From Selaginella tamariscina (Eukaryota; Streptophyta; Lycopodiopsida; Selaginellales; Selaginellaceae): a DNA stretch of 64,000 bases. Within the stretch, counting starts at the first letter, position 1; every line of letters begins with the position of its first letter. This document shows positions 200 to 62,215 of this stretch, in pieces. The DNA is taken from contig PUQB01000612.1 in the NCBI GenBank assembly GCA_003024785.1, positions 1 to 64,000 of the forward strand, written 5' to 3'. The notes below the pieces were generated by a model that was given only the letters and a program-made list of their open reading frames with translations, had not been told where the DNA came from and ran no database searches. The translations under genes were made by a program, and so were the position numbers.

Positions 200-2900
200 A
201 ATAAGTCATTCAATATCGAGCTTTAGCATACTTAGGTTTGTTGAGAAGGCAAACTAACTTCTGAAGGCATTCGAGGTCGCCTACAATATTAAGACATGCT
301 AATGAAACTCTGAATGCCGATGTTGTATGCAAATTCTAAGTATTGTAAATATCAATCCCAATCATTTTGAATAGATTTATATACTTAAAAATTATACCTT
401 TAAAAATTCATTCAAATGCTCGACTAACCCATCCGTTTGTGGATGAAATAGAATGTGAAAGATTGTTGAATTCCCATCTAAAGTAAAACCTTCAAATTTT
501 CACTAATAAAGATGTGTTTATTATTTGATAAAATTTATTCTGGACATGAATGACACAAAATTACTTAAGTGAGTAAAAAATTGCAACACTATGGGCCATG
601 CCATCTAGTAAAGCTCAAACCTTCACCTAACATATTAGATAATTTGTTAAAGCCACAACATATCGGTTGCATGCAATCGAAGGTGGAAAATGACCAATTA
701 AATCCCATGCTACAAGTTTGAATGGCCGATCTACCTGTATAGATTCTAAAGCACCAGTTGATCATGAGGAATTCTGAATTTGACATAATGAACAACTTCA
801 TACGTACTAGATCACATCTTGTTTGTTTATTCAGCCACTAAAAGAACGTTATAAACTGTCTAAAGTTCTTTAATAACCAAAATGTCTACCAGAAAGTGGT
901 GAATCATGATATGTTACAAGATATTTAGGAACATAAGTGGTTGGAATTACCAAACATAGTGAAGTCATAACATTTGTGCCAATAAATAAACCACACCGTT
1001 ATATATGCAAATTGTCATAAATGAAGAGAAACAAGAGTTGGAACGGTTAAGAAGGATTGGTTAGTGCTAAATAAATAGTTGAATCCAAGCATCTGTTTCT
1101 TAAGCCTTGAGACCTTTATAAGAATGGAATTGAAATCCGATTGATTGGTCATAAATGCACAAGGAGTCCTAGAAAGAACATCAGCATCCATCATACTATC
1201 CCCGGATGATGTTTTAACCTCAAAGTCATACATTTAGAGCTAAAGTGCCCATCTGGCAGATCGTTCGAGTCACTTCATGTTCTTTAGTAAGGCAAAAATA
1301 GCTGCATGATCATACTCCACAAGCATATGAGACTTATGAAGAGATACATGAAGATGCTCAAAAGCCCACACTACAGTTAACACTCAAGATCTAAAGTACA
1401 ATAGTTATGTTCAGGGCATTGCAATGCCCTACTTACATATGCAATGGGATGTCGAACAGACTCATTACATACCTCAGTCTACATTAGAAATCCACCAATA
1501 CCTATGGCAAAAGCATTCATTTGTAATATAAAAGGACGAGAAAAATCGGATAATGAAGCATTGGGGGGACGTCAAATACTTCGTAGCTTACAAAAAGAAT
1601 CTTCACAATTGTCAGTCACACAAAAGGAACATCCTCATGCAACAAGGCTTGCAAAGGAGCATTGACATCAGCCAAACGAGGTATAAAACGTCCTAAATAT
1701 GTGACCTTACCAAGAAATCGTGTAAAGACCGTACATCTGTTGGACGAGGAAATTTTGCCACAGCCTCCACCTTGGATGGATCCACACGTAACCCCTAACC
1801 ATGTACCCCAAATACGTAGTTTCAATGTGCCAAAAACACACTTGGGCTTCTTCAACTTGAGCCCATACTCCCGTAAACGATCAAACACACGAGCTACTTC
1901 CTTGAGATGATCTTCCCAAATCCCTGAGTATGAACCAGAATGTCATCCAAGTACTTTGCAACTGTCTCCAAAACTCATCATTAAAAACTTCATCATCATG
2001 CGCTGAAATGTGGCAGGAAGATACTAAACCAAAAGCATAACAAGGAACTCATATAAACCAAAAGGAGTTCGAATGCTGTTTTGGGAATGTCTTCGGGAGC
2101 CATAGGAATTGCCAATAACCTAAAGTAAGATCCAATTTAGTAAACCAACGACTCTTACAATTGATCTAACAAATCTTATGTGTTAGAAAGGGATAGCTAT
2201 CTGGTTCTGTAATAGCATTGACGGACGTAATCCACCGTGAACCACTTAGATCCATCATGTTTCCACTAAATGAGGCTCCAATGCCCATGGACTAAAAGAA
2301 CAGCCAACTTCTTCTTCAGCAACTTTGACACACATTTTCATATAATGGCCAATGATTGCCTTTGAACATCAGCTTTAAAGATAAAGCGTCCTCTGTTCGA
2401 ATGTGGTATTATGTTTGAACCTTAGCAGTAGGGGTGATATATGTAGAGAAAAGATATGAATATTTCTTTAATAATTGTTGTATCTAAAACTCTTGTTAAG
2501 AAGAAGTTGGTTTGATTGCCACTTATACATCTCTAGAGTTTCTTGACACTGAGTACACCATATTGAAACATCTGGCTCATGCATGATGACACTCGACAAA
2601 ATTGTCCATATCACTTGAGAGGGAGTTTATCCAGGAAAAGGTGAATGACTTGGAAGTATCAACCACTGAGGCCCAAATTGGCAACTTGCCTTACATCACC
2701 CAAGGATAATGTCAAAAATTTGGTGTGAGAATACATGGAGTTGCAACTCGTCTGCATAAGTCCCAAACTGCAAAGGTACTTGAGCAAGTGTAGACGAAGC
2801 AACTTGAGTACATCCATCATCGTACAACACATGTAAAGCTTCCTTGCTTGGCACCGTTGTCAAAGCATAATGCATAACCACATTAGCAGAAATCAAAGAA
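200..2900 (-). mobile_element. E5: decayed Ty3/gypsy retrotransposon internal region
   Basis: Read on the minus strand, the pol order is protease, reverse transcriptase (RT), RNase H, integrase. The protease trace lies at about 2,700-2,890 (reads VLYDDGCTQVAS, where D-S/T-G is usual). The RT active-site motif YLDDILV lies at about 1,930-1,955. The segment after it (1,616-1,888) reads like the RT end and connection (LKLKKPKCVFG, then FLGKVTYLGRFIPR). The integrase motif HPQTDGLVEHLN, which carries the catalytic Glu, is at about 410-450. Every module is broken by stops and frameshifts, and I could not find LTRs. It resembles E3 and E6 in style. It is clearly non-functional. Confidence 0.75.
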
Positions 2901-5340
2901 ATACTAAAACTAGGGGTACTATGTACGAAACCTTGTAGTGTAAATGGGTATAACCCTTTTAAGAGTTCGTGAAATTTGAGATGAAAAAGAAAAAAAGATG
3001 AAGGACTAGGAGATAAAGGAAAAGTGTTGATTCTGACTTAGACACCACCTGGAGCCAATCAAGAAACCGTTAACAATGTTGATAAGTGTGACCAAGTACA
3101 CCAGAAGCCCAACAAGACAATTGTCATCATCCTTGTCCTTGATCATGACCAACACTATTAAGCAAGTAGCTTCCACCTCTATAGGCACATGATTAACAGG
3201 AACATTGAAAGTTAGAGAGTAATGACCTCTGGAATGGGTAATTGTACTCTTGGAGCGCTTTAAAACGTTATGCACAAGGGAAAGCCTCTTCCAAAGTGAT
3301 AACCTAGTGCTTGAACATAACCAACAAGATACAGTCGAAGAGCAGGCCACATTCAAATATGGTGATATCAACTTGCATCAAGAGATTACGAAATTTAATA
3401 GCAAATTGCATGATAATTCATTTGGTGCTTGCTTCAAACTATGGAGCTGTTGAAACGCATCGTCAAAATCTCTTGCTTTCTCAAAAGTTAATTTAAACTC
3501 CGCTTGAAGGGTGAACCAGCATTGCTCATTTGTGAATAAACTTGTTGGTGGTGACGATTATTATATCACTGGAGAGCAACATTTAAAACACACATTGGAA
3601 ACTTGCGAAGCAATACGTAATTGTTCATCCATGATATGTGGCAATATGAGAAATGAGCTAAACAATAGTGAACATCTGCACTCAAACCACTTCGGTTGAG
3701 GTTGTACACACGGATTTGATTAAGAAGAGGAGCTAGAACTTGTAAGCATTGAAGGAGCTATTTATGCTGATGTGTGATGTAAATTAGTTATTCCAAAAAT
3801 TATTGCTGCATAAGAACCATATGAAAATAAATAAAGAAAAAAAAGGAAAGATTGAAAAGAAATAAAAAAAAACAAGATCAAAAGAAACTTCTCTCACAAA
3901 TTATCCGACTTTTTCGCTAGTATGAGAATCCTCAAACATAACAGAATAAATATACTAGATATTCATTAGGGTTTATATATAAAAAGAAAAGGTATATTTT
4001 AATTATATTTGAACTATTTTATGAAGGATTTAACTACACTATAAATATCTATAGTAATTTCTAAATATACCGGTTAACCTTATTAATCAAGAGTATATAT
4101 CTAAACTATGTTTTATTTCCTGAGGTGTTTATCGACGGAGCTGTAGCAGGCTCATATACAATCCTTCACTTTCCATTTATATATCTTGGGAATTGATATT
4201 GTCACCACACTTTTTTGATAGTGTTACCACACCACACCACAAGATACACCCGCGGCTGGCGAAGTTGAAAGGACGGCCGTCCAGAGCCAAGATCAATCCA
4301 AAGTCATTGACTACGTGCGAGGCATAACTGTTGAGCAAGGTTCTTGGAAACGTCACCAATGTACTTGCGGATGGCAATTGTGGATGGCAATTGCATTGTT
4401 GCTCCATGCCACAGGACAGATCGTTCTTAGTGGTTGAGCATTGGTGCGTGCTGACTTACTCATGCTAGCCTCTTGCAAATTGAGGAGTGGCTGTCCTTTT
4501 ACTTGCTGACCAGTTTCACAGATCAATTTTATATTTCAGTTTATTCATTTAAAATTTTTGCTTGGCAGACTTAATCAGTGTTCCCATTAACAATCGACTG
4601 GAAGTAAAGGAGAATTGGTGTGCAGCCAACCGACTTACCTCCACTTATAAATACATTTAACACAAACAAAATGGGCATCATATTAATTGGCACACGATTC
4701 ACGCTGTATTTATTAATAAGATTGGTTCAAGTAGAAGCACATATAAATACCACGGTACTTCGCCTAAAGAGGACTTCAATATTTTTGAACTTTCTAAAAT
4801 ATGCAGTTGTGTAAAAACAAAAGGTTAAAACAAGATAAAGTTAGAAAATTCTGGAGAAATCTCTTTCATCTAAAGACTCCGATAAACAAACGTATAAAAA
4901 CTAAAATATAAACTTCTACATAAAGTTTTCACAAAGAACATACATCATTTTAATAAATCATGTTAATTATTTAATTAAAATCTCAATTTTACATCAAAAT
5001 TACAAAGGTTTTAAATTTTCTACTCTCATAGTACTCATATAGGATAGTAGTATATAAATAACAAATATATACAACAATATAATAAGACATATTATCTTAG
5101 GAAGGAAGACGTAATTATCTTCTCCTTTTTTCTATTCAGTGTACAATATTACCAGTCACCATATATAAATATTATTTGTAATAACATTTGAAAATTGTAT
5201 ATGTTATGCTAATTATTATACATTGTTATATGCTTGATTTCAATATGATTTCATGTGTTAAACATGAAGACTTAGTTGATAAAGCAACAATTTCATTTAT
5301 CATTTATCCATCGTAATTAAGAGTAATGGAAGTAGTAACG
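2901..5340. other. Intergenic, no gene recognised
   Basis: This stretch is AT-rich with only short open frames. The part next to E5 (about 3,000-3,700) may be its decayed gag, but I see no zinc knuckle or other firm motif. Nothing else is recognisable. Confidence 0.5.
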
Positions 5341-5344
5341 AATC

Positions 5345-6798
5345 TACTTGAGAACTATAAAATTCTCTCATCTCTTTTCTAAATGAAGATATTCTCCTCA
5401 CCATGTCCTTAAATGCATTCTCTTCCTCACTGCTTTTAAGATTTTGGTTAAACATCCGACCAAATCTTTGACTTTTAATGGCCTAGATTCTTGAGAATAT
5501 CTGTGACCTGTTCCTCGGTCACACCACACCCTGTTGTGTTTCCTTGTGCTCCTGCATTGGCTGCTGCCTTCTTTGTTGTGCATGTGCCGCTAGATGGGTA
5601 GCCCCCACCTACATTAAAGAAATTAATTTTATTAGTGTCATTATAATCACATTAATAATGTCTTTATATGCATATACGTGCTAGCAACGAACGTACCTAT
5701 GTACAAATGTCTAGACATCATGGGACATGATATATGTATATGCCCAATATACATGTCATATTACTTAAACTTTCATATGTCATTAAAACACCTGTAAACA
5801 TTTGTAACACATGCACTCAAATGCTAATACTAACGTTGGTTTTAGGCTTCTTAGATGTATTGCCATTGTGTCTGCATAGTTTGCTTTCTGTTTGCCTATG
5901 GCATTGGCCTCTTTAGTTGTCAATGAGGAAGACATCACATCCTTCATTTCACCATGGCCATCCGGATTTCCAAGTAATTTTTTCATCTCTTGTCCAGACT
6001 TATTTAATGCGCCGGCACCTTCTTGTGTTTGCTCTTCGGCCCCAATTTCATCCTCTTTAGCTTTTACTTCTTGTGGAGCATTCTTGTCAAAGCCCAAGTC
6101 TTCTCCCTCATCAACTGCCTCATCGTCATCTGAGAATGCCTCTTCATGCTCCCAATCCTCAACTCTTTCAACCTCATCTTCGGCATCAAAATCCTCTTGC
6201 TTTGCATATTCATCACAAGAAGGCTTTCCACAGTTCTTTTGGTTCCCATCACCACCAATCTTCTCAAGTTCTCCAAATGGAGTGTTTGCAGTCTTCATTA
6301 TCCATCTTCCAAAATCACCATATATGCAATCTTTCTATCGTTCTTCATGAGTTCTTCAGCTTCTTCAAGAGTGAGTTGCTGCTTGTGCTGGACAAGTTTG
6401 CTAAACTTGTACCGTGTCATCCTCGAGAATCCAAGGTTTTTTTTTTTCTTGTGTGAGCTTCAGCTTTTCTTGGCTAGATCGGTTTCTTTAGGAACATCTC
6501 TATGCATGCTCCAATGGACGTCCTCTCGTGAGAAAGATGGTAAACCCGCAGCAAATTGTCCCAGAAAGTATTATTTTCCTTTTCTGGTGACCTTCTCATT
6601 GACGAGAGATCCCACAGAGCAGGGAATCGACTTCTCTACCATCTTCTTGTTGCAATCCTTACAGATTGTCATGTGCCTACAAGTAGATGCAAACAGATGC
6701 TCTGCATGTTGAGTGTCACACTTGATGCAGTTCGATCGTAACACAAGATCCCTGCCTCCATGAAGCATTGCTTGTATATCAATGTCTAGGTTAGACAA
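5345..6798 (-). pseudogene. TFIIF alpha subunit (RAP74)-like pseudogene
   Basis: TFIIF alpha is a general RNA polymerase II initiation and elongation factor. On the minus strand, in order: a Cys-rich N-terminus (C-x2-C, then CRHMTICKDC, about 6,660-6,740) like the plant protein; a block reading YFLGQFAAGLPSF then PWILEDDT (about 6,430-6,560); LTLEEAEELMKN and MKTANTPFGELEKI (about 6,270-6,390); the acidic region with DWEHEEAFSDDDEAVDEGED (5,783-6,298) and NKSGQEMKKLLGN; an apparent intron (about 5,612-5,845); and the C-terminal winged-helix block VTEEQVTDILKNLG...DLVG...LKSSEEENAFKDMV (about 5,360-5,540). Between PWILEDDT and the LTLEEAEE block about 35 family residues are missing. There are in-frame stops and several frameshifts, including one at an A run. 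Because an intron is kept, this looks like a decayed genomic copy and not a retrocopy. Family call is firm; loss of function is very likely. Confidence 0.8.
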
Positions 6799-6969
6799 AT
6801 TAATCCGGCTTATATATGTTCAATCGGCAATAGCTCGTCTGGAAAAACATTTCCCAGCGGCACTAGAAAGAACCAATTTGACACATTTGCTTTCTCACTG
6901 CATAGATCACAGAATTGAACCTCTATCCTCCTACATATTCTACGAATTCTTCAGCCCTATAACCTAAAC

Positions 6970-7460
6970 GATCCCGACTTATGTACAACTTCACGCATGC
7001 ATACGTGCGTATGCGCATGCGTTGTATAACTTTTGTATAGTACGTTGGAGTACAACATTATAGGAACATGCCAATATGGGTATCTAGAATTTCTTCTATT
7101 AAATGCCTTATAAGATGCAAAGCATATCTTATTTATATATATGAATGATGTATAGATATTATTGGTTCCCTGCTTATGTACACATATAAAGGTACATGCA
7201 TTTAAAGGAGTCCATCGTACATTGAACCATAGAATAAAAAGAAGGTAGATATTATAATATAGCGCTAGGCTAATGATTATTTGACATTAAACGGAGAATC
7301 ACCATTTACTTACAAATGTAGAATTTTCATTATAAATGTGCAAAATAAATGAAGAATTCACATTACACACAAACGAATACAAGAGAAAAGAGAAAGGCCT
7401 TATTGTATTTGGAAACGCAAGGAAATCCTACACTTCAATTGTGTTATAAGGTATTATTTA
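6970..7460. other. Intergenic, no gene recognised
   Basis: AT-rich spacer between two gene remnants. I see no coding signal, RNA gene or repeat of note. Confidence 0.5.
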
Positions 7461-7461
7461 A

Positions 7462-7834
7462 TTAGAAGAGTTGTTTAAACACCGGCACTTGCTCTATGCA
7501 AATCTTTTGCCTTGTGTTTAGTGATGGCTTGTCAAAGCTATGAAGCTCCGGATTCTCTTCAAGCATCTCGTTTGTGAGATGCACATGTCGCTTCTTTATT
7601 GCAGAACTATCACCTGAACAAGAAATGGTTGTATAAAATAGTTGATCAGTAGTTTGAACGACATGACTTAGATATTCTTTGAAATTTCTTCTTCAGATCC
7701 ATGTGTCTCTTATTGGGATCTGCAATGCCAAAGTACACATCTGGATATGTCTTCTGAATTATCACATTAGACAGAACTGCACTGGCAAGAGCAAGTATTG
7801 TTGCAGGCCCCTTTACTGTGGAAGCATTAGCCAT
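7462..7834 (-). pseudogene. Type III polyketide synthase (chalcone synthase family), N-terminal fragment
   Basis: Chalcone synthases join coumaroyl-CoA to malonyl-CoA at the head of flavonoid synthesis. Exon 1 (7,834-7,663) starts MANASTVKGPATILALASAV, matching the family's GPATILAIGTA start, and continues TYPDVYFGIADPNKRHMDLKKKFQRIS. Exon 2 (7,613 down to a stop at 7,462-7,464) reads SSAIKKRHVHLTNEMLEENP then PSLNTRQKICIEQVPVF, matching the family block KKRYMHLTEEILKENP...PSLDARQ. The intron splits a Cys codon after its first base (T|GT), the intron position conserved across plant chalcone synthases. The frame ends after about 105 residues, against about 390 in the family. The catalytic Cys, His and Asn all lie in the missing part, so this fragment cannot be active. 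Confidence 0.85.
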
Positions 7835-18594: not shown

Positions 18595-20212
18595 CTATGC
18601 ACAAGGTTTATCAACAAGCTTGCCACAAAGTCCTGGATTTCCTGCAAATCTAAAGACACATAGAAATCAAATATATATCTACAATAACTACTAAGTTGTA
18701 CCTGTCTGCATCGAGTTTGTCAAATACACCTCCAGATGGAATGGGACCAGACAAATTATTGTTTGCAACATTCCTGCAAACAGAAGTATATTTATAACTT
18801 AGATATTTAAATATACATGTACACACACTCTCTCTAACTTACAGATCCACAAGGTTCTGAAGTGTAGCTAAGGCTTGCGGGATCTGTCCAGAAAATGTGT
18901 TATTCTGCAGTAGCCTGCAGATATACGCTGTTACTATTAAATACATAACTCTACTGTACAGCGACGCAGTTAAGATATACTTACAGTCTTGTTAAGCTGT
19001 TGCATGAACCCAAGGATTGTGGCATAACTCCTGTAAGCTGGTTGCCAAATAGGATGACTGTGTCAAGCTCACTACCACTGCATAGAGATTCTGGAAGTGA
19101 ACCAGTGAGCCTATTAGTTGATAGATCAATCTTTTGAAGGTGTCTTTGCCCAGGAATATTAACATCCCCAGTGAGCTTGTTATCCCACAGATACAGCACT
19201 CGAAGATTTAGTGGTAGGGACGGGATCCGGCCAGAAAGACTGTTCTTGAACAGACTCAGAAGCTCCAAGTTTGTCAATTGAACCAGGCTCTTTGGAATCT
19301 GCCCCATCAGATCGTTGCAGGACAAATCTAGAGACTTCAAATTGGTGAGACTGCCAAGACTTCCTGGGATGGGGCCTGAAAGAGAGTTGTTGAAAAGAAA
19401 GAGAGTGTCCAGATTTTCCAGATTCCCTAACTCATCTGGGATTCCTACAGTCAGTCCACAATTTGCCAGATCAAGGTGGCGTAGATTCTTCAGGTTTCCC
19501 AATGCTGCAGGTATGCCACCTGTGAATCTGTTGAAGTAGCCAAGGTAGAGCTGCTCAAGCTGTGGAAGTTGCCCAAGCTGCCCAGGTATTGGACCTGTCA
19601 GATTGTTCCCAGACAGAGCCATGTACTTCAGAGTTGATACCGATCCATACTCGAGTGGTATAGATCCATCAAAGTAGTTACCGCCCAGATGAAGATAAGA
19701 AAGCTTAGAGAGTTTACTAACTCCAGTTGGAAGAGGGCCCTTGAAGTTGTTGTCATAAGCATCCAGGCTGACAAGTGAGGCTGCAGACGAGATATCACTG
19801 GGAAATTCTGGGCCAAAGCTGGAGTGTGACACATTGAGAAAAGCAAGAGATGGTAGCTTCGTGAAGATCTCCACAGGAAGAGGAGAGTTGGCAAAACTGT
19901 TGCCATCCAGAGAGATGTTTGTGAGTTGCCCTAACGCATCCCAAGTGGTTGAAATCGTGACAGTCCCGCGGAGCCTGAGATTGGATAGTGTCAGAGAGAT
20001 CACCCTGGAATTGGAGTTGCAGAGGACTCCGAACCATCTGCAAGGATCTGGACCCGTTTTCACCCAGTTGCTCAGCACACCGCTTGGATCCTCAAGGAGG
20101 ATCTCAACAGAATTAGGGCTTCTGCATCTGGAGAATAACCCGGGATATAACCCCAGCAGGACGTGGAAAGTATCATGCACACCAACAGCAGAAGGATTGC
20201 CTTAGACATCAT
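18595..20212 (-). CDS. CLV1/BAM-like LRR protein lacking membrane and kinase segments
   Basis: Four exons on the minus strand: 20,212-18,985, 18,914-18,843 (exactly 72 nt, one repeat), 18,773-18,702 and 18,649-18,595, joined by introns of about 50-70 nt with good borders. The first ATG gives a signal peptide (MMSKAILLLLVCMILSTSCW). The LRR cap (PDPCRWFGVLC) and about 16 repeats follow, including a BAM/CLV1-like segment (LYLGYFNRFTGGIPAALGNL, then HLDLANCGLT) and the closing GNPGLCG motif. A stop comes at CGKLVDKPCA, where the receptors of this group would continue to a membrane helix and kinase. There is one frame break near 20,095: the signal-peptide frame and the LRR frame differ by one base at a CC/TT run. 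It is either a secreted or receptor-like protein, or a truncated receptor kinase. Confidence 0.75.
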
Positions 20213-50700: not shown

Positions 50701-53208
50701 CATGTTGGGATAGTCATGTTATAATGGAGGTTGATGTTGTTGATGCTCGTGTACCAGCACAAGGTTAGGGTCATGAACATGCAGTCCGTTGTTGGGCATG
50801 TGATAAGGTTGGACACACATATTGGCACTGTCAACATTTTCCCGATTGGCATCCTCCATTTCTAAGGTGGAGGCCTTTACATCAACAATGTCCGGTTGGT
50901 CCTTGTGCAAACCCTCAGTCTTTCTTTGGGAATTTCATCAAGGGGTTCACTCGACACCAATTCATCCAGTATTTACTTTTCAAATTCAATTTAATAACAC
51001 GACATGTTTTGATTTTCTTTTAGTGTTGGTTGACTTTTCTAGACATGTTTTACACATTGTTGTCTTCATTTATGCCATGTGGTAAAACCAATCTTCATTC
51101 TTTACGGCAACGGATACACTCATGCTTGTTTGCGGGATGAGACTAACTCATTATTCATGTGAATGATAGTGAGCTTAAGTTTCAATCTTTGTAGGTGGTG
51201 CTAAGTCAAGCTTTTGACCTTATTTTTGGTATGGATTGACTTGCAATCATATCAAATGTAACTTTGAAAAGTCTCCCTCTTAATTGACTATCCCTCATTT
51301 TTCTTCCATTCCTCTTACTTCTATTCCACTTTGTTCATTTACTTCTAACTCTACTTTCATCACTTTTATCTTATCCTTACTTCTTGTAGTTTTTCTTCAT
51401 GCTCTTTCATTCCCTCTCTGGATCCTTCATATGATCATTGTGATGCAATCATTGATTAATTCAAGAAAGAGTATACTGATCTTTTCGACTTTGACTTATC
51501 ATATAAAGCCAAGATTGCAACATGTCACCCTATTCCAACTAGGAATACTAGGTTAATAAAGGTACATGTTTAGCGTTAGTCACCAAAGGAGCTCAAGATC
51601 TTATGAGCAATGTTAAAAAAATGTTGGAGAAGGGTGTTATCCAAAAGTCTCAAAGTCCTTGGGCGCGTGAACTTCATCTTGTGATGAAGTTAAATGAGAG
51701 CATTTGGTTCTGCATTGACTATTGCCGATTAAATGATGTAATTATTTCAGATGTTTACCACTTCCTCATATTGCAGATCTTCTGGATCAATTAGGACGAA
51801 GTTGTTGGTTCACCAAGTTATATCTCACCTTTGGATATTAGCGAGTTTTGATGGCTGACATGAACATTCTTAAAACTGCTTTTTGGACACCATTTGATTT
51901 GTATGAATTCTTAGTGATGCCTTTTGGTTTAAGCAATGCTCCAGCAACTTTCCAGCATATGATGAACGAAGTTATTTGTAATATGCCGAAGGTGACTACC
52001 GACTTCATCGATGATGTTTTGATCCACTCGAAAGAAACATAGGAGAAGTATGTTTGTGATGTATGTAAGGTTTTGAATTAGATGCGGGAAGTTGATTTGA
52101 AAGCTGAAGCAGTATAAATGTGTGTTTGGATTCAAGGACATTACTTATTTTGGCTATCACATTTCCCATGAAGGTTTATAATAACTTATTGTAGTTCTGA
52201 AGTTCCCTATTCCAAAATGTGTGAACGATGTGCATTTTTTGGCAAGGCACAATTATCTTGGTTGTTTTATTAATTATCTTTCAAATCGTACTACACCATT
52301 ACATGCATTACTAAAGTCGCCAATGTCATCTTTTGTGTAGTTCAAGGATTGCAAGCAAGTGTTTAAAGATCTTAAGGAACTATTGATGACTCCTCCAGTT
52401 TTGGTATACCCTAATTACACTCATCCCTTCATCTTGCATGTGGATGTTTCTAACATTGATCTCAGGGGCGTGTTGATGTAGGAGAGTATGAGTGTGTATG
52501 GTCAACTTTATCTTATTGTGTACATCAACTGTATGTTATAGCCAATAGAGGTGAACTACTCCACAATAGAGAAGGAGTGTCTAACAACGATTTGGGGTTT
52601 TGAGAAGCTCCATGCCTACTTGCATGATTCTTAGATACTGTTGAAAGGCAATCATGCTACAATCACTTCATTGTTAAAGTAGGAGAACTTAATTGGTTGT
52701 ATTGCTTGATGGGTCTTGAAGCTTCAAATTTACAACTTTGAGGTTGTTCATTGCTTAGGGAGTTCCATTGCTAATGCTGACGCTCTTTCTTAAACTCCTC
52801 TTTCACCTTTTCTCTCTTCATTTATTCTAAAGGAGCCAGTTGTTCCAACATCAGTGAATTTTCTGAATGAAGATTTGGTACTGTCAACAACTATTGAGCC
52901 ATGGATCAAAAGGCTTCATTTCATGATGGGTTTAAGAATTCTATATTGCTTGCTAATGACTTGCCATTCAAGCACTTACATTCTCATGACGACCTTCTTT
53001 ATTTTGTAAGGATTGATCCGGATGATCATTTGCGGTTGGTGGTGTCTTCAATCTTCATTCCACGCTTCCTCCATGCTTACCATGACTCTCCTGTTTTTAG
53101 CATGCACATAGAACATCATCATGTAATTGAGAAGCTACACAAATCTTTTTATTGGCCAGAGTTGTGAAGAGATGTGATCTGGATGTGGTAGTTGTGTGTG
53201 GTGCCAAG
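50700..53208 (+). pseudogene. E6: decayed Ty3/gypsy element, part before the MULE
   Basis: A CCHC knuckle (RCWACDKVGHTYWHC) is at 50,787-50,831, with protease traces at about 51,100-51,250. RT: a start at 51,603 (KKMLEKGVIQKSQSPWAREL), then MPFGLSNAPATFQHMMNEV and active site FIDDVLIHSKE (about 52,000-52,035). RNase H traces are at 52,400-52,800. The integrase zinc finger begins at about 53,060 (HHHVIEKLHKSFYWPEL). The finger is cut at 53,208 by the MULE and resumes at 61,125. Many stops are present. It is related to E3 by its FIDDVLIH motif. Confidence 0.8.
53200..53208 (+). repeat. MULE target-site duplication, left
   Basis: GGTGCCAAG, identical to 61,116-61,124. Confidence 0.9.
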
Positions 53209-53320
53209 GAGGATTAGCAAAAACCGGGCTTCGTACAACGGGCTTTTCGCATATTCCCGAATATCCAAGAATATTCTGTCAAATAAACGGGAATATTCTA
53301 GAATATTCTGCCAAGTAGAT
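53209..53320 (+). repeat. MULE left terminal inverted repeat and subterminal region
   Basis: The first about 25 bp pair imperfectly with the right end (shared GAGG, CAAAAA, GGGCTTC). Then several GAATATTC palindromes occur, and nearby (53,340-53,410) three CCGAC-containing half-sites of the central array. Confidence 0.8.
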
Positions 53321-53614
53321 TATCTTTAACTTTCAATATAAAATGCCGACCAACAAGTGAAAAAAACTAATTATTTGCCGACTAGACTTTACTATACCGA
53401 CTGGACTTAAAAGGTCGCAGGTTTGACATTGCACTTGCAATCAACCAATAACCGATGCACTTCTGCTGGAGTAAGGGTCCGCCTCTGTAAGAAGTAAGTA
53501 ATCGTTGGTCCAATCCAAGAACATGAGTGTACACAAAATACATGTGTTGGCAGGGGCTCCAGTTCTTGGCTTTCTGAAAAGTTGCACAAGTGCATGACGG
53601 AACAGTAGAAATTG

Positions 53615-56578
53615 TTACCTAGCAGATTGCATGCCTGCAGAGACAATGAAGGCCTCAGTCTTCCCTCTTTGAACCACCTCCACGTTGTTGATCCGACCTT
53701 GAAGAATCTTTGCCTGGTTGTAATGTTTCTCATGTTCCTTGGACATTCTTGTTGGTGTTCGCACACTCCGTCCATGGTATGTTGGTACTCTATGTGCTCC
53801 CTCTCCTCTTGGTGGTGATGGTGTTCGATCCATTCGGCTACTACTGTCGTCTACCATTTCTTCAAATCCCTCCAACTTGAATCCTGCTTTCAGAAGAGCT
53901 TCAACCTCATTTGCATTCAAGTTTGTTCCTTTTTGAACTGGCCAAACCTCTGGAACTTCTGGAATACTCTCAGGAGGAATCCCTGCATATGGTCGTCTGA
54001 AGCAACAAGAATCGCGTGGGCAGAACCATAACATCTGATGAGTGAACTCAATGTTCCCAAATGCATTTGTATATTGCCGTCTACCGTGAAATCCTGGTGC
54101 CGGTACACGATGTGGATATCCTATGGGTCTGCCACACTTGCTGTTACCGTCCTGAGTGAGACCTAGACATTTCACCTGACTTGCCTCCCCAATGCGTCTG
54201 ATGGCCCACTGAGTCATCAACGTCTCTCTTTCAGTGACATTGACATCTTGAAACTTGAGTTTTTTCCTGCGTGCATTTGGGATGACTTGTTCTGCATATT
54301 GTGTGTCATGTCTATGTGTACGAAGTGCATCAATCCCATGGTCCCCAGTTGACGGTTGACGAACGGTTCGAACACGAACATTTGTTGTAGAGGCAAACTC
54401 TGGACTTGCAAGATGCTCTTCATCACTAACAAGATTTGCAAAAGTTGTTGGAGACACTGATTTTCCCGCTGAAAGTTTCTGCTGTGCACGTTTCAGAAGA
54501 GTTTCCATGGAAGGACCTGTGCCTGAATATCTCCCTTCAAATGATGCCTTGACCTTTGCACTTTGGAAAACAGCATCTGTTAAATCTAACATTGTTGCCT
54601 CCAACAAAGGAACACGCTTCGTCAGCCTTGCTCTTCGTGCTCTTGCATGAACAACTTCGGAGTTGTTAGTGGTAGGCACATTCGCAACACCATCTTCTGT
54701 CAAGTCAATTATCTCTGTCATGGAAATATGATCTTCATGTCTTGCCCACCATGACAGCCATGTTTGCAAAGCGCTAACGTTACTGGACCTGCCTTCCCAA
54801 AATGACTCCAACATTACTCGTCGTTCCAACTTATCTTGGTTGGTTAGTGCTGCAGGCCATGAGCGTGCAAGGTTCATGTGCTCCTCCCTGTGTTCCTCAA
54901 GTATCCACTTCTTTGTAACTTGACGCACTGACTGCATGTAATGGAACAAACAACTCCTTTCTCTTCCTCTCATCTTTGACCCATTGTTGAAAACTTGACG
55001 CAATGCTAACCAAATTGCACCTGACTCATCTGACATGAACCCCGCAAAGTTCACATTATGAAGTCCTTGCTTGCTGCACACTTGAAGCATAGTGTTCAAA
55101 AATTTGATCACCGCCACACTATCCTCCCTGATCATGTCACCATAAGCAAGTGTCACCATCGACCTTAAACTACACAAACATAAGTGCATTATATTAGTAA
55201 GTATTTTAAAACATAGATATGTTAATACTTACAATGGATCATAGAGATGTATTCCCAGTGTACACCAATCATCAATACGATATGTGTGGTCTAGCACCAC
55301 CCACTGCTGTTCGAGATCACCTCCAGATTGACACCTTCTAATGTAGTCTATTCCGGATCCTGGGCCGGCAACCGTCATTTTGAAGATTAAAGGCTGCTCT
55401 TCAGCTCCGTTGAGGTCCATTCCGGGTATGTGGATAACATGTATGAATGGGATTGATAGCTTCTTCTTTAACTGCAGAAGTCCTTCGTAACCTTCTTTGA
55501 AACGAGTGTCTCTTGTTCTAGCCTGAGATATCCATTCTCTTGTTCTACAGTGGAAAGGTTAAGCATCTCCAAAAGGAAATAATAATTTTTTTGCTTACCG
55601 GCGGTGATTTGTGAGTGGTAGTAGATCTGACAGAACCTTGTCGTATGATACATCTCCAGAATCTGTTACCAGTTTTTCCAAAATTATATTGCGTGCTGCT
55701 TGAAACTCTATGACACGTTGATTAGTTCTTGGGGTTGCAGCGACTGCTTTGTTGATTGTCTCCTTAGCTCTGTCTTTAGAGACCATGGATTCGGGTGGTC
55801 TACGTGGGTGTTGATGTTCTCCAAGATGGATGAAAAGCCTCGTGCATGTGATATCATCTGGAATTATGTAATATGCAACAACGGAGCATGTCTGCACTAG
55901 AAGGGGCTCATTGTTGCAATGCACACACTTCATTCCAAGCACTCTACCATCTGAAGATAACTGGACTTTATCAATGGTGCCCTTAAATTGGCAGTCATTT
56001 GCTTTCTTACTGAAGCTGATGAACGGACATGTTTCCTTTACGCATTTCATGTGGCCAATACATGAACTGCGACTAACACGAGCTGGAACATTCCAATGTG
56101 TTGTGCAGCGTTGAGTCCAGTAATCACACCCATCCTTCCTATTCATCCCTTTGTACTTGTCCTTCATTGTTTCGTGTGCTGGCAACTCGTAAATCACATT
56201 TCCGTTGCAATCTTCTGGGACCTCAGCAACTTGCTGAATCGATGACGAGACCACCAGTTGCTTCCCAATCCTACATCTCTGACTATTGCGAAGTATTGTT
56301 ACCATAGAATTGTCCCGATCTGTTGTCTCCAACCGGAATAGCGGTCCTTTGGAAGGAAGAAGTGTGTAATACACAAAACTGCTAGCTCTTGCCCCTTCTG
56401 GTTCTACCTCAACATTCGCAGCATCTCCACCAACAACAGACATCAAATGCAGCACTTTAAAAGATTGCCAAGGTGGAATGTCAAATGCAGACCTGAGATC
56501 TGTTTCAAAGACAAATGCAATACCATCTTCATCTGCAGGGAAGTCCTTGTCAACACCATTGTAGCTGATTCTTGCCAT
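53615..56578 (-). CDS. MULE transposase, three exons
   Basis: Exons 56,578-55,599, 55,544-55,233 and 55,169-53,615 (introns of 54 and 63 nt, GTAAGC...TAG and GTAAGT...TAG) give 2,847 nt, an unbroken frame of about 948 residues from MARISYNGVDKDFPADEDG. The N-terminal part has a Cys/His cluster resembling the GCM/WRKY-like DNA-binding fingers of MULEs (SSCIGHMKCVKETC, GMKCVHC, HLGEHQHP). The catalytic part shows D in WVVLDHTYRIDDW (about 55,291), D in GFMSDESGAIWLAL (about 55,030) and the C/H motif SCLFHYMQSVRQ. The third acid I could not place surely. The Cys-rich C-terminus (CLGLTQDGNSKCGRP, WFCPRDSCC) may be a second zinc region. It should cut and move the element. An in-frame upstream ATG at 56,620 is an alternative start. 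Confidence 0.85.
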
Positions 56579-56843
56579 GTAGCAAAAATGGAACAAACAA
56601 AAGTTAAAATTCAAAGACAATGAACATATTACACACGATGGTTAATGTGTTTGTTAGTCGTGAGGCAATCATTTCATTGACAAATATTAAAAATAATATT
56701 AATTGCGTGCGTCTGGGTAGAAGAGTGAAATTAATTTACTGCGTCTGGGTAGGTTTTTTGTAAATTAAAAAGTTTTACTATGTACAAGTGGCGATCATGC
56801 ATGCAATATGTTTACAGAAATTAGGTTGGTTTTTAATTGATTT

Positions 56844-56905
56844 AGGGCGGCTAGGGTTTTGCAATTAGGGCGGCTAGGGCAGCTAGGGCGGCTAGGTTTT
56901 CGTGG
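56844..56905. promoter_or_regulatory. GGCGGCTAGG repeats with telo-box-like motif
   Basis: Four GGC(G/A)GCTAGG-type units flank TAGGGTTTT, which reads as AAACCCTA (telo-box) on the minus strand. It lies about 270 bp upstream of the transposase start. In plants this motif is common in promoters of growth-related genes. Its role here is inferred. Confidence 0.4.
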
Positions 56906-57074
56906 AGCAGGGGCTCATTTGGGGGCATAGCGTGGAGCAAGTGTGGCTCCAGGGATTAATCACAATAGGCTTCCATTGAGGGGGTGAGTATTTTCTGATT
57001 TCTTCATGATCTGCTCATGATCTTTTCATGATCTGTTCATCTTTTTACATCTCTTCACAGTTGCAAGAAATCCG

Positions 57075-57506
57075 AGTCGGCCTGCCGACTCGGACTGACT
57101 TCGTTGTCCGTCCCAGTCGGCAGGCCGACTGGGGTGGACTGTTCCAGATCCAGTCAACATTTTGACCGGGGTTGACTGTTCCAGCCCCAGTCAGCATTTT
57201 GACTAGGGTTGACTGTTCTAGTCCCACCTAGCATTTTGACTGGGCCTTGCTTCGTTCCCAGTCCCAGACTGGGCCTCCCTTTGTTGCCAGTCCCAGTCGG
57301 CATGCCGACTGGGCTCCCTTTGTTGCCAGGCCCAGTCGGCATGCCGACTGGGACTCCCTTTGATGCCAGTCCCAGTCGGCATGCCGACTGGGCTCCCTTT
57401 GTTGCCAGTCCCAGTCGGCATGCCGACTGGGCTCCCTTTGTGCCAGGCCCAGTCGGCATGCCGACTGGGACTTACAGCAACTGCTCTCTCAGTCGGCACG
57501 CCGACT
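57075..57506. repeat. Array of palindromes spaced about 40 bp between the two MULE genes
   Basis: Five perfect copies of the palindrome AGTCGGCATGCCGACT start at 57,295, 57,334, 57,374, 57,413 and 57,451. One-base variants start at 57,075, 57,115 and 57,491, and decayed units at about 57,152, 57,189 and 57,227. Spacing is 37-40 bp. The array fills the gap between the divergent genes and half-sites occur near both element ends. Likely a protein-binding array (transposase or methyltransferase). Confidence 0.9.
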
Positions 57507-57591
57507 GTGAGGGCTAGTATGTTTTTTTAATTTTTTTAAACATCTTTGAACATTTATTACAGTTTTTTGTTAAACCTTATTGCTTTTGTAG

Positions 57592-60500
57592 ATGCGCTCT
57601 TCACAACGTTTACAAGAAAAGAAGATGAAGGAGCCTACTGAGAGAGAAGCAGAAGCTAGAGCTGCAATTCAGAGAGGGCGTCGGGGTCGTGGGAGAGGAA
57701 GTAGGAAGCTGGCTGTGGTTCAGGAACAAGGACCTTCAAGTGATGCTCCAGTTGAACAGGCAAGCCAGCAGGACTGGTCAGGAGAGCAAGAGGATGTAGT
57801 TCAACCCCAACAAGAACAATCAGACTTTGTTGAAGAAGTTGAGGATGATGTCTTACCACAGGAGACACAGGAGCAGACAGAAGGCACACAAGCCTCATGC
57901 GCAGTGACTTTGTCGAGTGACGAAGAGGATGAACCCAAGAACAAGAAGAGACGACGCAAAGCTGCTGGAGATTCAGAGGCTGCTAAGAAGAAGAAGAAGG
58001 GTAAAGCAGAAGTGCCAGATAATGAGGAAGTTTACAACATTGCAGCCAGCATGCATTCGGAGAGTGCAGTGCGTCTTCTCGCGAAGATCACAATCCGAGA
58101 ATATGGAGAGGCACCGGATGTCCCTATTTGCCGAATTCTGGGAAATGAGCAGGTGCGGAGAGTCAATCCAGCGGATCTGGAATCTTTGACTAGGAGTTTC
58201 AAGAAGGCAGTTGGTTATTTGCGCAACACCACTCAGTTCATCCTTCAAGTTGGGGACCCCATGACAGATGCAGATCTGGCAGCATTGAGAAGCGATGAAG
58301 CGATGTATGCTCAGCATTTGGCTTTTGAGGAGGAGCTTCAGTCTGACATGTTCCGGCAATGGGCACCAATGCTTTCGATGAAGAAGTTCATCTGTTGGGA
58401 TGGTAATCACAGGCTAAAGGTGCTTCAGAAGCTGTACACAGAAGACACGGAAGATAAGAATCAGTGGGCAGTGAGAGTGCGTTCAGGCTTCATCCGTGCT
58501 GGGGTCATGGATAATCTTCAGCTTGTGACAATGTTTCAGCAAATTAATAGGTAAACATAGTGACCTCTAGATCATAGGATTAACTAACTTCGAGATTTTC
58601 AAATATGCAGTTCCTCCGCAACGGCAGTGCAAACCACACTGCCACATCTTCTGCTATCTGTGAAGACATGTTGCACCAGTGAGGAGGGCACAGCGAAGAT
58701 CTTGGCCAGGCTCAGTGACAAGGAACGAGATGACATAAGAAAGTGGAAGGAAAGCGCACTGGACAACAAGCTTGGCATCCACTTCCGAATTTGATCTGTG
58801 CAAAGATTTTTTTGAGGTACCACGTCTCACACTTATATTACTTAGTTGATTACGTCTGTGAATTACAGAGTGAGATTGAGGATGATCTTGAGAAGGCTGC
58901 AAGGGCATCCAAAGGCAACAAATACCAGGAGCAACAACAGGTCTACATTAAGCATGACAAGCGCATGATGAAGATCTTAGCCATCATCGATCCTGCATTG
59001 GGTGAAGAGTGGTTCGACAAGGTGACCCAAATCACATGGAAACAATGCAGATGGATGGGGTTGGAAAAGCTGTACGCGCTTTCAAGGGCGAGAATTCCAA
59101 ACGAGACGAGAATCATGTACTTCAATAAACTGGTACGTCTCGAACTGAAGAGAGAGCAAGAGACACTTGGATTGCCGGGTGTTCAGGATAAGGAGTGGAT
59201 AAGGTGGTTTACTATCGATTTGTATTGGCGGCGATCAGAGAGGAGGCAGTACAGATTCTCACGGGACTCATCGAGGATGGCGAGTGGACAGGCCGGTTAC
59301 AGATTTCACGACTTGGTACGATGAAGTGCGGGTAAAATGCAAGAACGTGATGTTCCAGCCATTCCATGAGTGTGTGAAGTTCACTTACTCCATAGAGCCG
59401 AAAGAGTTCCTCGAACACGAAGAGACAGCAAGAAGGATGATTTGGAGGTAAGGATGATCTTCTTGACATTGTTACATTCTGACACTACTATATGTTCATT
59501 ACAGGTATGTCGCAGCGAGAAAGGTGCCTCACACACAGACTATGGTATTCTGGTCAGATTACATGGAAGCACCACACATGTGGTCGAAGACAAGATCTGG
59601 CCTGACAGAGTTCGAACGTGTAAACGTACCGTTCTGGCTTGATTATCCACCTGGGCAACCACCAACATGGGAGAAGGATCTCTACAATGAACACTCAAAA
59701 GATCTCCCATGCATCTCATGGGATCCGGCAGAGGTCGACTTCATTAAGAAGACAAAGGCCAAGGCAAAGCGGCGTCAGCCTGTGCAGCAGTCAAAGACCT
59801 CAGATACAGTAGCTGGCACCTCCACTACTCGCGATCCAGCTGCCTTCTTCAATTTATCTGAAGTGCTACCATCGCAGGGAACCATGGACATCAAGGATGA
59901 CTTGGTCACATTCGTCCCTTCACTTGCTACAACTCGAGGTGATAATTTCTTGGCGATTGATGACATCGAGGAGATGCAACAGGCCGTGCTCACGGATGAG
60001 AAGGAAGAGGAGGTTCCTGACGCTAGACTGGTTCCTTATAGAAAAGTTCAGACACAGGTGGCCAGGTACCATACAGCTGACAGCCAGACTCGCTACCAGC
60101 ATATTGCGGGAGAATATGGTTTCAACTTGGTGATCTTCGACCTTCCAAATGGGACCTTGCCAGGAAATACAACGAGTGATACGCCATACCTCTACCTTGA
60201 TCCAGTGAAGTTCGATGAAGCACTCCAGTTTGCAGGTATGCATATGGCTGCAAATGGTTGGTTGGTTGTGTTTGCTGCAGCAAACACCTGGGATCAAGTT
60301 GTCCGAGCTGCAAGTGTGGTGGACCTTCAACTTGCTGCAACGTACTACATCTACAGAGGGCGTGGTTGGGGCTACCGCAACAAGATGAAGGTACTTTTTT
60401 CTTTATTCATGAAGTTCATTAATGATTTTGATGTTTTAACAGGAGAGCATCCTGCTCCTTCTTGTCTTCCAAGATGCATCTAGAGGATTGCGCGATAATC

Positions 60501-60905
60501 CGCTGCGTTTGTCATCAACAATTCTTGTTGATAATCCTGAGCGGTTCCAAGAACCATGGTAGGCATTTCATTTCAACAATTTAAGTATTTACCATTATCT
60601 TCACATGCAGGATGGACTACCAACCGAAGAGCACTCGATTGATGCAGCTCGTGATAGAACGACTCACCCGGCCAGGTGATCTTATCTGGGATATAGGCAG
60701 TGGTACGGGGTCCTCAATGCTTGCAGCTATCGAGCTGGGGAGAAACATTGTTGGGACTGAGAAGAACCCTGAGCTCGGGAGAATTGCTATGAACAGGATT
60801 AAAGAGAACATCCAGCCAGAGGAAATCCCAACCCAACCAATAGCGACGTCAAGTAGGACTGGTGGTTCACGAATTGCAGCATTGCTCAATCGTAAGAAGA
60901 AGTGA
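57592..60905 (+). CDS. ParB-like domain plus DNA amino-methyltransferase protein, seven exons
   Basis: Exons 57,592-58,550, 58,611-58,816, 58,869-about 59,132, about 59,187-59,447, 59,505-60,390, 60,443-60,558 and 60,611-60,905, with introns of 52-60 nt. Layout: acidic/basic tail with a nuclear-signal-like run (KNKKRRRK, about residue 116); ParB/Srx-like domain (VPICRILGNEQVRRVNPADL, about residue 175; WDGNHRLKVL, about 270); a helical middle; then a beta-class methyltransferase, motif IV before motif I: VIFDLPNGT (60,133-60,156), a GWLVVFAA strand, LIWDIGSGTGSS (motif I, 60,690) and LGRNIVGTEKNPELGRIAMN. This class methylates adenine N6 or cytosine N4. Motif IV is DLPN where DPPY is usual. 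Frame slips are needed near 58,786, 59,203 and 59,285, all at G or C runs. An AG acceptor-like TTTTGTAG just before the ATG may end a 5' UTR intron. Confidence 0.8.
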
Positions 60906-60999
60906 CAAGTGTTGAATTGTACTCTTTGGTGTTGAAATAAAACTTTAATAATACAGTATAAACATGGCTATGATTTAAATATTTTTTGTTGTTAATTGC

Positions 61000-61115
61000 C
61001 GACTGAGCCAAAATCCTAAATTCTAAGAATATTTAGGAATATTCTAAGAATATTCTGGTAGATTCTTTAGAATATTCCGGGTCCAAGCCCGGAAGCCCTC
61101 TTTTTGTCGGACCTC
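61000..61115 (-). repeat. MULE right terminal inverted repeat and subterminal region
   Basis: Mirror of the left end, with AGAATATTCT palindromes at about 61,020-61,080 and one GCCGACTGAG half-site near 61,000. Confidence 0.8.
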
Positions 61116-61124
61116 GGTGCCAAG
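61116..61124 (+). repeat. MULE target-site duplication, right
   Basis: GGTGCCAAG, identical to 53,200-53,208. Confidence 0.9.
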
Positions 61125-62215
61125 CTCACAATACTCCTTCTTGTACTTTGGAAGGATGGTTGGAATCCATTGCAGTTTCTCATCTTTTTGAGTTGATGAC
61201 GTTTGATTTGATGAGACCTTTTTCACAGTTGACTACTAGTAACAAGTATGTTATTATCGCTTTTGACTACCTAACTCATTGGCTGGAAGTTGGTGCTTTT
61301 ACTAATGTAACTACTTATATTGTTGGTCACTTTCTCTATAATACGGTAACGTTCCAGCATTCTTGTCCAGGGTGGATTCTCTTGGACAATGGTCCTACAT
61401 TTATGACTGAGGCATTTCGAGTCTTAACATCTCAGCTGGGGATACACCACACTTTCACAAGTACTATCATCCTTAAACAGATGGTTTAGTGGAATAGCTC
61501 GTCAAAATTTTTAAGGGGATGTGATTACAAAGTATGTAAACTTTCAACATTTAAATTGGAATAGTTATTTGCCCTCTCTTCGATATGCTTATGTCATTGG
61601 AGTATAAGTTTTATTGGTACTTCACCATATGGTCATGACCTAGTGTTACCGATAGAGGTAGGTTTACCTTCGAGGTCTTGGAATTGATATTTGACGAGCA
61701 TTCTTCCATTGGTTTGAGTGGAGTCTATAGAACATTTGGGCCATGTACAAGTGGAAGAACAACGCTACTACAATTCTCATCATCGTCCACACTGTGGAGT
61801 ACAAGGTGGATGAGTTGGTGTTGGTTTCGTCTTCTCAAGTTTACAATACATGGTTTAGCCAAGAGTCTCCTTGCTTAGTGAAAAAGACCATATCGAGTGT
61901 TGTGAGGCAAGTAGGCCACAAGTTCATAAGGTTTGGCATGACATTCAACCCGATCCTTCAAAAATTGTGCATGTGCAATGCTTGAAGCATTTTGTGCAAT
62001 AGGATTAAGAACAATTTGTGCCACCTACATATTCACTAATGCCTCCTCATGATGTTTCTCAAGATTTGGTCCCATATCCATATACCAAAAACCCTAACCA
62101 CCTTTTCATCCTTACGAGCGGAGGAGATGTAAGGTCAAGATGTACAACTACAATGCCATATACTTTTATTAACGTAGTGAGATTTTTGATAAGCATTAGA
62201 TTGATTTCAATCTGA
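61125..62215 (+). pseudogene. E6 integrase and C-terminus, part after the MULE
   Basis: The integrase core includes FELMTFDLMRPF, IIAFDYLTHWLEVG (first catalytic Asp) and ILLDNGPTFMTEAF (second Asp), at about 61,180-61,420. The end (about 61,780-62,200) has a basic, poorly preserved segment. No LTR was found after it. Confidence 0.8.

Follow-up and report, generated by a model that had tools for sequence, protein, structure and literature searches.

A 7.9-kb DNA transposon occupies positions 53209-61115 of a 64,000-nt stretch of the Selaginella tamariscina genome (contig PUQB01000612.1; this whole stretch is referred to as the window) and was used as the reference copy of a family, here called family A. 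The element carries a transposase gene and, divergent from it, a second gene whose product combines a ParB-like region with a domain resembling the beta-class amino-methyltransferases, and between the two gene starts lies an array of palindromes in which the short motif GCCGACT is repeated. The original prediction, made from the letters of the window, was that a prokaryote-like methyltransferase gene sits beside the transposase of a plant transposon; this is supported, and holds in a diverged second family (family B) too. Tentatively, we prefer to explain the element as similar to the Mutator-like elements (MULE-like), with an accessory protein for self-recognition that would act on the element's own array, because the gene pair is conserved, the array is present and there is a parallel in the VANC proteins of VANDAL transposons.

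The element and its two genes

The predicted boundaries were confirmed, with the ends where they had been placed. Comparison of the flanks identified a 9-bp target-site duplication, GGTGCCAAG, at 53200..53208 and 61116..61124. The inverted repeats are short and imperfect (17 of the outermost 25 bases are alike by eye); the left terminal region (53209..53320) includes subterminal palindromes of the AGAATATTCT type and the right (61020..61115) subterminal repeats of that type. Duplications of 9 bp also flank two further copies that were fetched, L039 and L041, and none was found in the flanks of a third, L040. Palindromes of the AATATTCT type were noticed near both ends in family A (window 53291-53308 and 61037-61055) and in family B (locus L065, 1646-1675 and 9211-9226).

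The transposase gene (53615..56578, minus strand) is clean, as had been claimed, and its three exons (56578-55599, 55544-55233 and 55169-53615) encode an open frame of 948 amino acids. Introns of the two genes are of the GT-AG type and measure 52-63 nt. Residues resembling a D..D..E core with C..H after the second D, which we take to be the MULE motif, were assigned by eye (VVLDHT, FMSDExGAIW, CLFH and LESFWEGR) and are kept in family B. A protein-database search found no relatives of the transposase, and Pfam gave no transposase family for it, with the whole protein to E 5 or with two pieces of it to E 10. The predicted Mutator-like affiliation is thus backed by the 9-bp duplication and the catalytic-looking residues but not by a profile; as no MULE profile was matched, the element is written MULE-like and not filed as a MULE.

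The second gene (57592..60905, plus strand) has six exons (57592-58550, 58611-58816, 58869-59447, 59505-60390, 60443-60558 and 60611-60905) separated by GT-AG introns of 52-60 nt, and a product of about 1014 amino acids that begins with a long low-complexity N terminus. A divergent, intron-containing gene had been predicted and this structure bears it out, but in the window copy exons 2 and 3 contain single-base indels that break the reading frame, some of them common to L039 or L040. Among four copies compared, exons 1-3 are open only in L041, which breaks in exon 4, while exons 4-6 are open in the window and in L001, L002 and L004. The frame-breaking indels may be assembly noise or real decay. 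Small indels and substitutions also cluster at the same spots (window 59616-59623 and 60501-60505) in several copies, and may reflect sequencing error, hypermutation or something else.

The ParB-like region (58117..58550, plus strand) is recognised by short motifs, namely NEQVR, LxxSFxxxxGYL and WDGNHRLKVL, which are kept in family B and in a decayed third group of sequences, group C. The ParB-CTPase fold is defined by a Box I and a Box II in the part of PMC12704722 that treats it. The GxxR signature of Box II (P motif) is found as the short motif DGNHRL in A, B and group C, and the LxxSFxxxxGYL-like stretch in all three resembles Box I by eye. Of the ParB/Srx-like domain in the original prediction, the DGNHRLKVL motif is therefore present, but no profile or fold match accompanies it, and this N-terminal region is called ParB-like at the level of motifs. 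No relatives of it were found in phage records by tblastn.

The methyltransferase part is divided over two exons, with the motif IV half (FNLVIFDLPNG) in exon 4 (60121..60390, plus strand) and the motif I half (DLIWDIGSGTGS) in exon 6 (60611..60905, plus strand). The match of exon 6, the last one, to PF01555 has an E of 7.5e-10 and passes the family cut-off, and the motif I region, which contains the S-adenosylmethionine (SAM) site DIGSGTGS, matches MboIIA, DpnA and CcrM at E 4e-4 to 3e-3. When the C-terminal half was compared with phages, 93 records were matched at E <=0.01, none of them over 80% of the query, the best listed E being 1e-5. Protein-database searches of limited reach found no relatives, and none were found in scans of viral and genome contigs that rest on exact short peptide patterns. 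The bacterial or phage origin that had been predicted for the gene is putative, the phage matches being partial and C-terminal.

Motif I follows motif IV, which is the order of the beta class, and the predicted assignment to that class stands in both this respect and the PF01555 match; it does not in motif IV. The usual catalytic motif IV of the class is D/N/S-PP-Y/F/W. Here it reads DLPN, in seven of nine distinct copies of family A (the other two are out of frame there) and in four of five family B loci (one is out of frame); the phage relative whose match is longest has DPAY, with the motifs paired by eye, while the BLAST alignment places them otherwise. These features bear on the explanation that fares best among the alternatives, in which the protein works as an active DNA amino-methyltransferase and writes N6-methyladenine (6mA) or N4-methylcytosine (4mC) on the element's DNA, as suggested in print for algal relatives. 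The profile match, the motif order, the similarity to MboIIA, DpnA and CcrM and the purifying selection on both catalytic halves (see below) all speak for such a writer, but the usual motif IV is missing from families A and B alike. Catalysis is doubtful because of DLPN, and with it the earlier suggestion that the methyltransferase marks the element's own DNA; we consider an active writer unlikely. As DLPN is found in both families, the fold may instead serve as a SAM-dependent module for binding or structure, or its chemistry may be altered.

A repeated cis element between the genes

The space between the two start codons holds the array (57075..57506), made up of five perfect 22-bp palindromes, CCCAGTCGGCATGCCGACTGGG, and three variants, with 16 GCCGACT half-sites in the array. 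The perfect palindromes start at 57292, 57331, 57371, 57410 and 57448, a spacing of 38-40 bp. In the genome searched for copies (300.7 Mb, 1391 contigs) the perfect palindrome occurs 1092 times, against 0 for a reversed control, and each of the nine contigs for which palindrome sites were listed has a family A copy. The number of sites differs between copies, with 8 in the window, 8 in L039, 6 in L040 and 12 in L041.

Element A contains 18 GCCGACT motifs; besides the 16 in the array there is one near the left end, at 53377, and one near the right end (TTGCCGACTGAG, 60998..61004, plus strand). In two family B loci the counts are 10 and 7, with 9 and 6 in the spacer between the genes and 1 each near the right end, where TTGCCGACTGAG occurs in both families. 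The arrangement in the family B spacer is different, and the same GCCGACT core is repeated. Elsewhere the motif is rare, with 3 occurrences in the 56.1 kb of the window outside the element and none in 36.2 kb of other loci, and it is absent from the group C loci (L053-L064). GCCGACT is a cis element common to families A and B, concentrated between the genes and also present near the right end.

Next in probability, and likewise unlikely in our judgement, is that the array is a site for the transposase or for a host factor, and that the ParB-like/methyltransferase protein does something else, such as assisting transposition. Half-sites occur close to the right end and, for family A, close to the left end as well, which is where transposases bind; the array lies between two gene starts where promoters are expected; and copies exist that have the transposase and little of the second gene. 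Against this, 16 of the 18 sites in A, and 9 of 10 and 6 of 7 in the two B loci, lie centrally, and palindromic clusters would suit a dimeric binder of the ParB type.

Copies of the element and retention of the gene pair

Numbers of candidates are given here as obtained at first look and are not exact copy counts. A 321-bp probe from the 3' end of the methyltransferase gene gave 226 candidates, and the best 40, which were scored, were all 100% identical, so the element is repeated far beyond chance. A left-end probe gave 215 candidates, the best 40 of which were 96-100% identical. The search for further elements with both genes was successful. Three copies fetched because both of their ends had matched (L039, L040 and L041) are collinear with the reference over the whole element and carry both genes at 97.99-99.09% identity. 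Both genes, at 98.0-98.7% identity, are also found in L045 and in L046 (element positions 711-6755 only), to which the palindrome alone had led, and relatives of the pair occur in family B. Family A was recently amplified and seems to have been recently active. At locus L034 a family A left end adjoins a further, incomplete piece of this element.

The pairing was followed from the best 40 of the 215 left-end candidates. For 18 of them a methyltransferase match was listed 7.3-8.7 kb away on the same strand, and the 3' end of the element was found in 13 of 18 that were sampled at the expected place from the remaining 22. The other left ends comprise C132, which diverges after 572 bp, C13, which was left unsampled, and two that run off their contig. 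Overall, the 3' end of the methyltransferase gene is at the expected distance in 31 of 37 checked left ends.

Three of the five sampled negatives were followed. L087 is collinear up to element position 6646, in exon 4, and has lost the 3' part of the second gene. In L088 a deletion of positions 4965-7601 takes out most of the methyltransferase gene and leaves the right end in place, and the collinearity of L089 breaks off at position 3466, shortly after the transposase start. Copies of this type are products of deletion or truncation. The original prediction had named, as an outcome that would tell against it, element copies lacking the methyltransferase gene together with the gene standing alone elsewhere. 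Copies of the first kind were thus seen, with L087 lacking the 3' part; the second gene standing alone was not seen, in searches that were not exhaustive for it.

A second family and constraint on the accessory gene

A search of the genome with PF01555 gave 739 candidates, the best 150 of which were scored, and revealed family B beside family A. A family B probe gave 533 candidates, the best 40 at 98-100% identity. Both genes have relatives in the two family B copies examined (L065 and L066), and L065 is bounded on both sides by a 9-bp duplication, GCTGGGAAT, recognised by eye, despite its internal rearrangement.

For the comparison of the second gene between the families, five stop-free parts were chosen, with 331 of the roughly 1014 codons. 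In these five parts the proteins are 51-75% identical, and in other stretches less so, down to about 36-47%. The proportion of synonymous sites that differ (pS) is 0.82, which is saturated, and that of non-synonymous sites (pN) is 0.25 over the 331 codons, with pN well below pS in each of the five parts; the second gene was therefore constrained during the divergence of A and B. That the gene is a captured passenger, multiplied with the transposon and having little or no function, for which one might point to the internal deletion in L088 that spares the right end, to the end of L089 past the transposase start and to the lack of a fully open copy among four, is made very unlikely by this purifying selection and by the relatives of both genes in two families.

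Group C, with the pattern NEQVR..DSFRQNGYIS..FNVWDGNHRLQWL, was noticed at L053-L064, with matches at about 1501. The pattern has 13 sites in the genome, some of them outside group C, against 3 in a reversed control. In two group C contexts, L067 and L068, neither motif I nor GCCGACT was found, nor a transposase recognisable as of the family A or B kind.

Host methylation footprint

Substitutions were counted in 28 left ends and in 24 right-end sequences (one copy, L008/L040, was included twice), leaving out clustered differences. C>T and G>A changes make up 87 of 113 substitutions at the left ends and 57 of 94 at the right. Per available cytosine, C>T changes at the left ends number 36/104 in CG, 24/137 in CHG and 27/501 in CHH contexts, and at the right ends 23/54, 16/77 and 18/288, respectively. 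A decay in the order CG > CHG > CHH is what would be left by host methylation of CG and CHG sites. Complete escape from that methylation is made unlikely by this bias, and the earlier suggestion of escape from host silencing does not hold in full.

The palindromes were compared with this decay. For one of the two CG pairs of the palindrome, the genome has 4 deaminated sites and 1092 intact ones, where 27-39 deaminated sites would be expected from the CG decay in the element ends, and none of 67 palindrome sites in eight sequences has a CG change. The small number of deaminated palindromes may be due to local hypomethylation, selection or turnover of the array.

Surroundings of the element

Fragments of open reading frames on either side of the element (52898-53167 and 61130-61490) resemble pieces of a retrotransposon integrase by eye, and the element therefore appears to have inserted into an older retrotransposon. 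The clearest plant gene of the window is a leucine-rich-repeat receptor-like open reading frame at 18981-20201. This reading frame, the short GT-AG introns and the decay at CG and CHG sites all support a plant origin of the sequence.

Comparison with known systems

A gene of this kind is already in print for an algal transposon. As described in the relevant part of PMC12477816, the DNA transposon Sola1-1_Ec32 of Ectocarpus has a ParB-like/methyltransferase accessory gene with a product of 1104 amino acids, and that paper cites Iyer 2011 and Petroll 2025 for green and red algal elements with such genes. The Selaginella gene has the same layout, being opposite in strand to the transposase, about 1000 amino acids long, and ParB-like (by motif) with an amino-methyltransferase part, of the N4C/N6A type in the algal case. 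In contrast, Sola1-1_Ec32 is described in that account as a 21.5-kb Sola element of a brown alga, the comparison being one of descriptions, while the element presented here is 7.9 kb long, makes 9-bp duplications and occurs in a land plant, in two families and with a palindrome array. The original prediction knew of no described family with this gene pair; this has to be amended for algae, but in searches of one open-licence library a transposase paired with a ParB-methyltransferase was found in algae only and not in a land plant. The occurrence in a land plant extends that accessory class.

VANDAL elements of Arabidopsis have tandem short motifs in their non-coding parts that vary between copies and are bound by the element's own VANC protein, according to a portion of PMC5735166. 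The Selaginella array is likewise a short motif in copy-variable tandem repeats within a non-coding part of the element. The VANC motifs given there are different (YAGTATTAY and AGTTGTCC/AGTTGTAC), VANC is not described in that portion as a ParB or methyltransferase protein, and loss of methylation has been demonstrated for VANC, whereas in the Selaginella element the few deaminated palindromes are an indirect hint of it.

ParB-fold fusions to PF01555 are listed as more frequent in phages in the section of PMC12704722 concerned. With such phage and bacterial fusions the Selaginella gene shares the two-domain plan, the GxxR of Box II and a helix-loop like that of Box I, and it differs from them in motif IV, in its introns and in its long low-complexity N terminus. 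Retrotransposons and DIRS elements with DNA methyltransferases (PMC5890265) are a further case of a transposon-borne methyltransferase, but the enzymes described in the pertinent part of that source are C5-cytosine or Dam-like, the mode of transposition is another and a ParB part is not mentioned there.

A possible role in self-recognition

Under the preferred explanation of a self-recognition accessory protein, this protein would consist of a ParB-like region of the nucleoside triphosphate-binding type, a middle part and a SAM-binding fold of the beta-class methyltransferases. It would load on the GCCGACT array in a parS-like manner, recognise the element's own copies, and target either their chromatin or the pair of divergent promoters, keeping the element expressible, in possible analogy to the action of VANC proteins on VANDAL motif arrays. 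A more specific form of this proposal, in which a ParB-type clamp with a methyltransferase fold sits on the palindromic arrays as a parS-like system and marks the promoter region or shields it from host CG and CHG methylation, so that many copies stay expressible, as a prokaryote-derived counterpart of VANC, seems unlikely.

Several results weigh against self-recognition. Searches of Pfam, PHROGs, NCBIfam and PDB sequences found no ParB match for the ParB-like region, and its fold was predicted with low confidence (predicted local distance difference test scores of 45.7 from the single sequence and 45.4 from 11 rows); a Foldseek search with these models gave no match at E 0.001. It is because the profiles found no ParB and the models are too poor that 'ParB-like' is a call at motif level. 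The second gene is open throughout in none of the four copies that cover all six exons (window, L039, L040 and L041), and there are copies that keep the transposase and lack the second gene wholly or for the most part (L088 and L089). In family B, L066 keeps the divergent order, with a transposase match that extends only to residue 478 of 948; L065 has transposase pieces to residue 941, rearranged internally with an inverted middle; the pair is complete and in order in neither of the two copies. The copies carry the CG/CHG footprint, so any anti-silencing would be partial or local, and the few deaminated palindromes may be explained by array turnover or youth. The accessory protein is a candidate binder of GCCGACT, and binding, expression and modification are all putative, being read from the sequence.

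Host silencing restrains most plant transposons, and the question is how some of them still multiply. The plant transposon described here is present in many near-identical copies and has, besides its own cis array, an accessory gene that is conserved and prokaryote-like. As it combines such a gene with such an array, it makes the use of ParB-type loading or amino-methylation in the self-recognition of a eukaryotic transposon directly testable, and it brings into a land plant an accessory class that was in print for algae.

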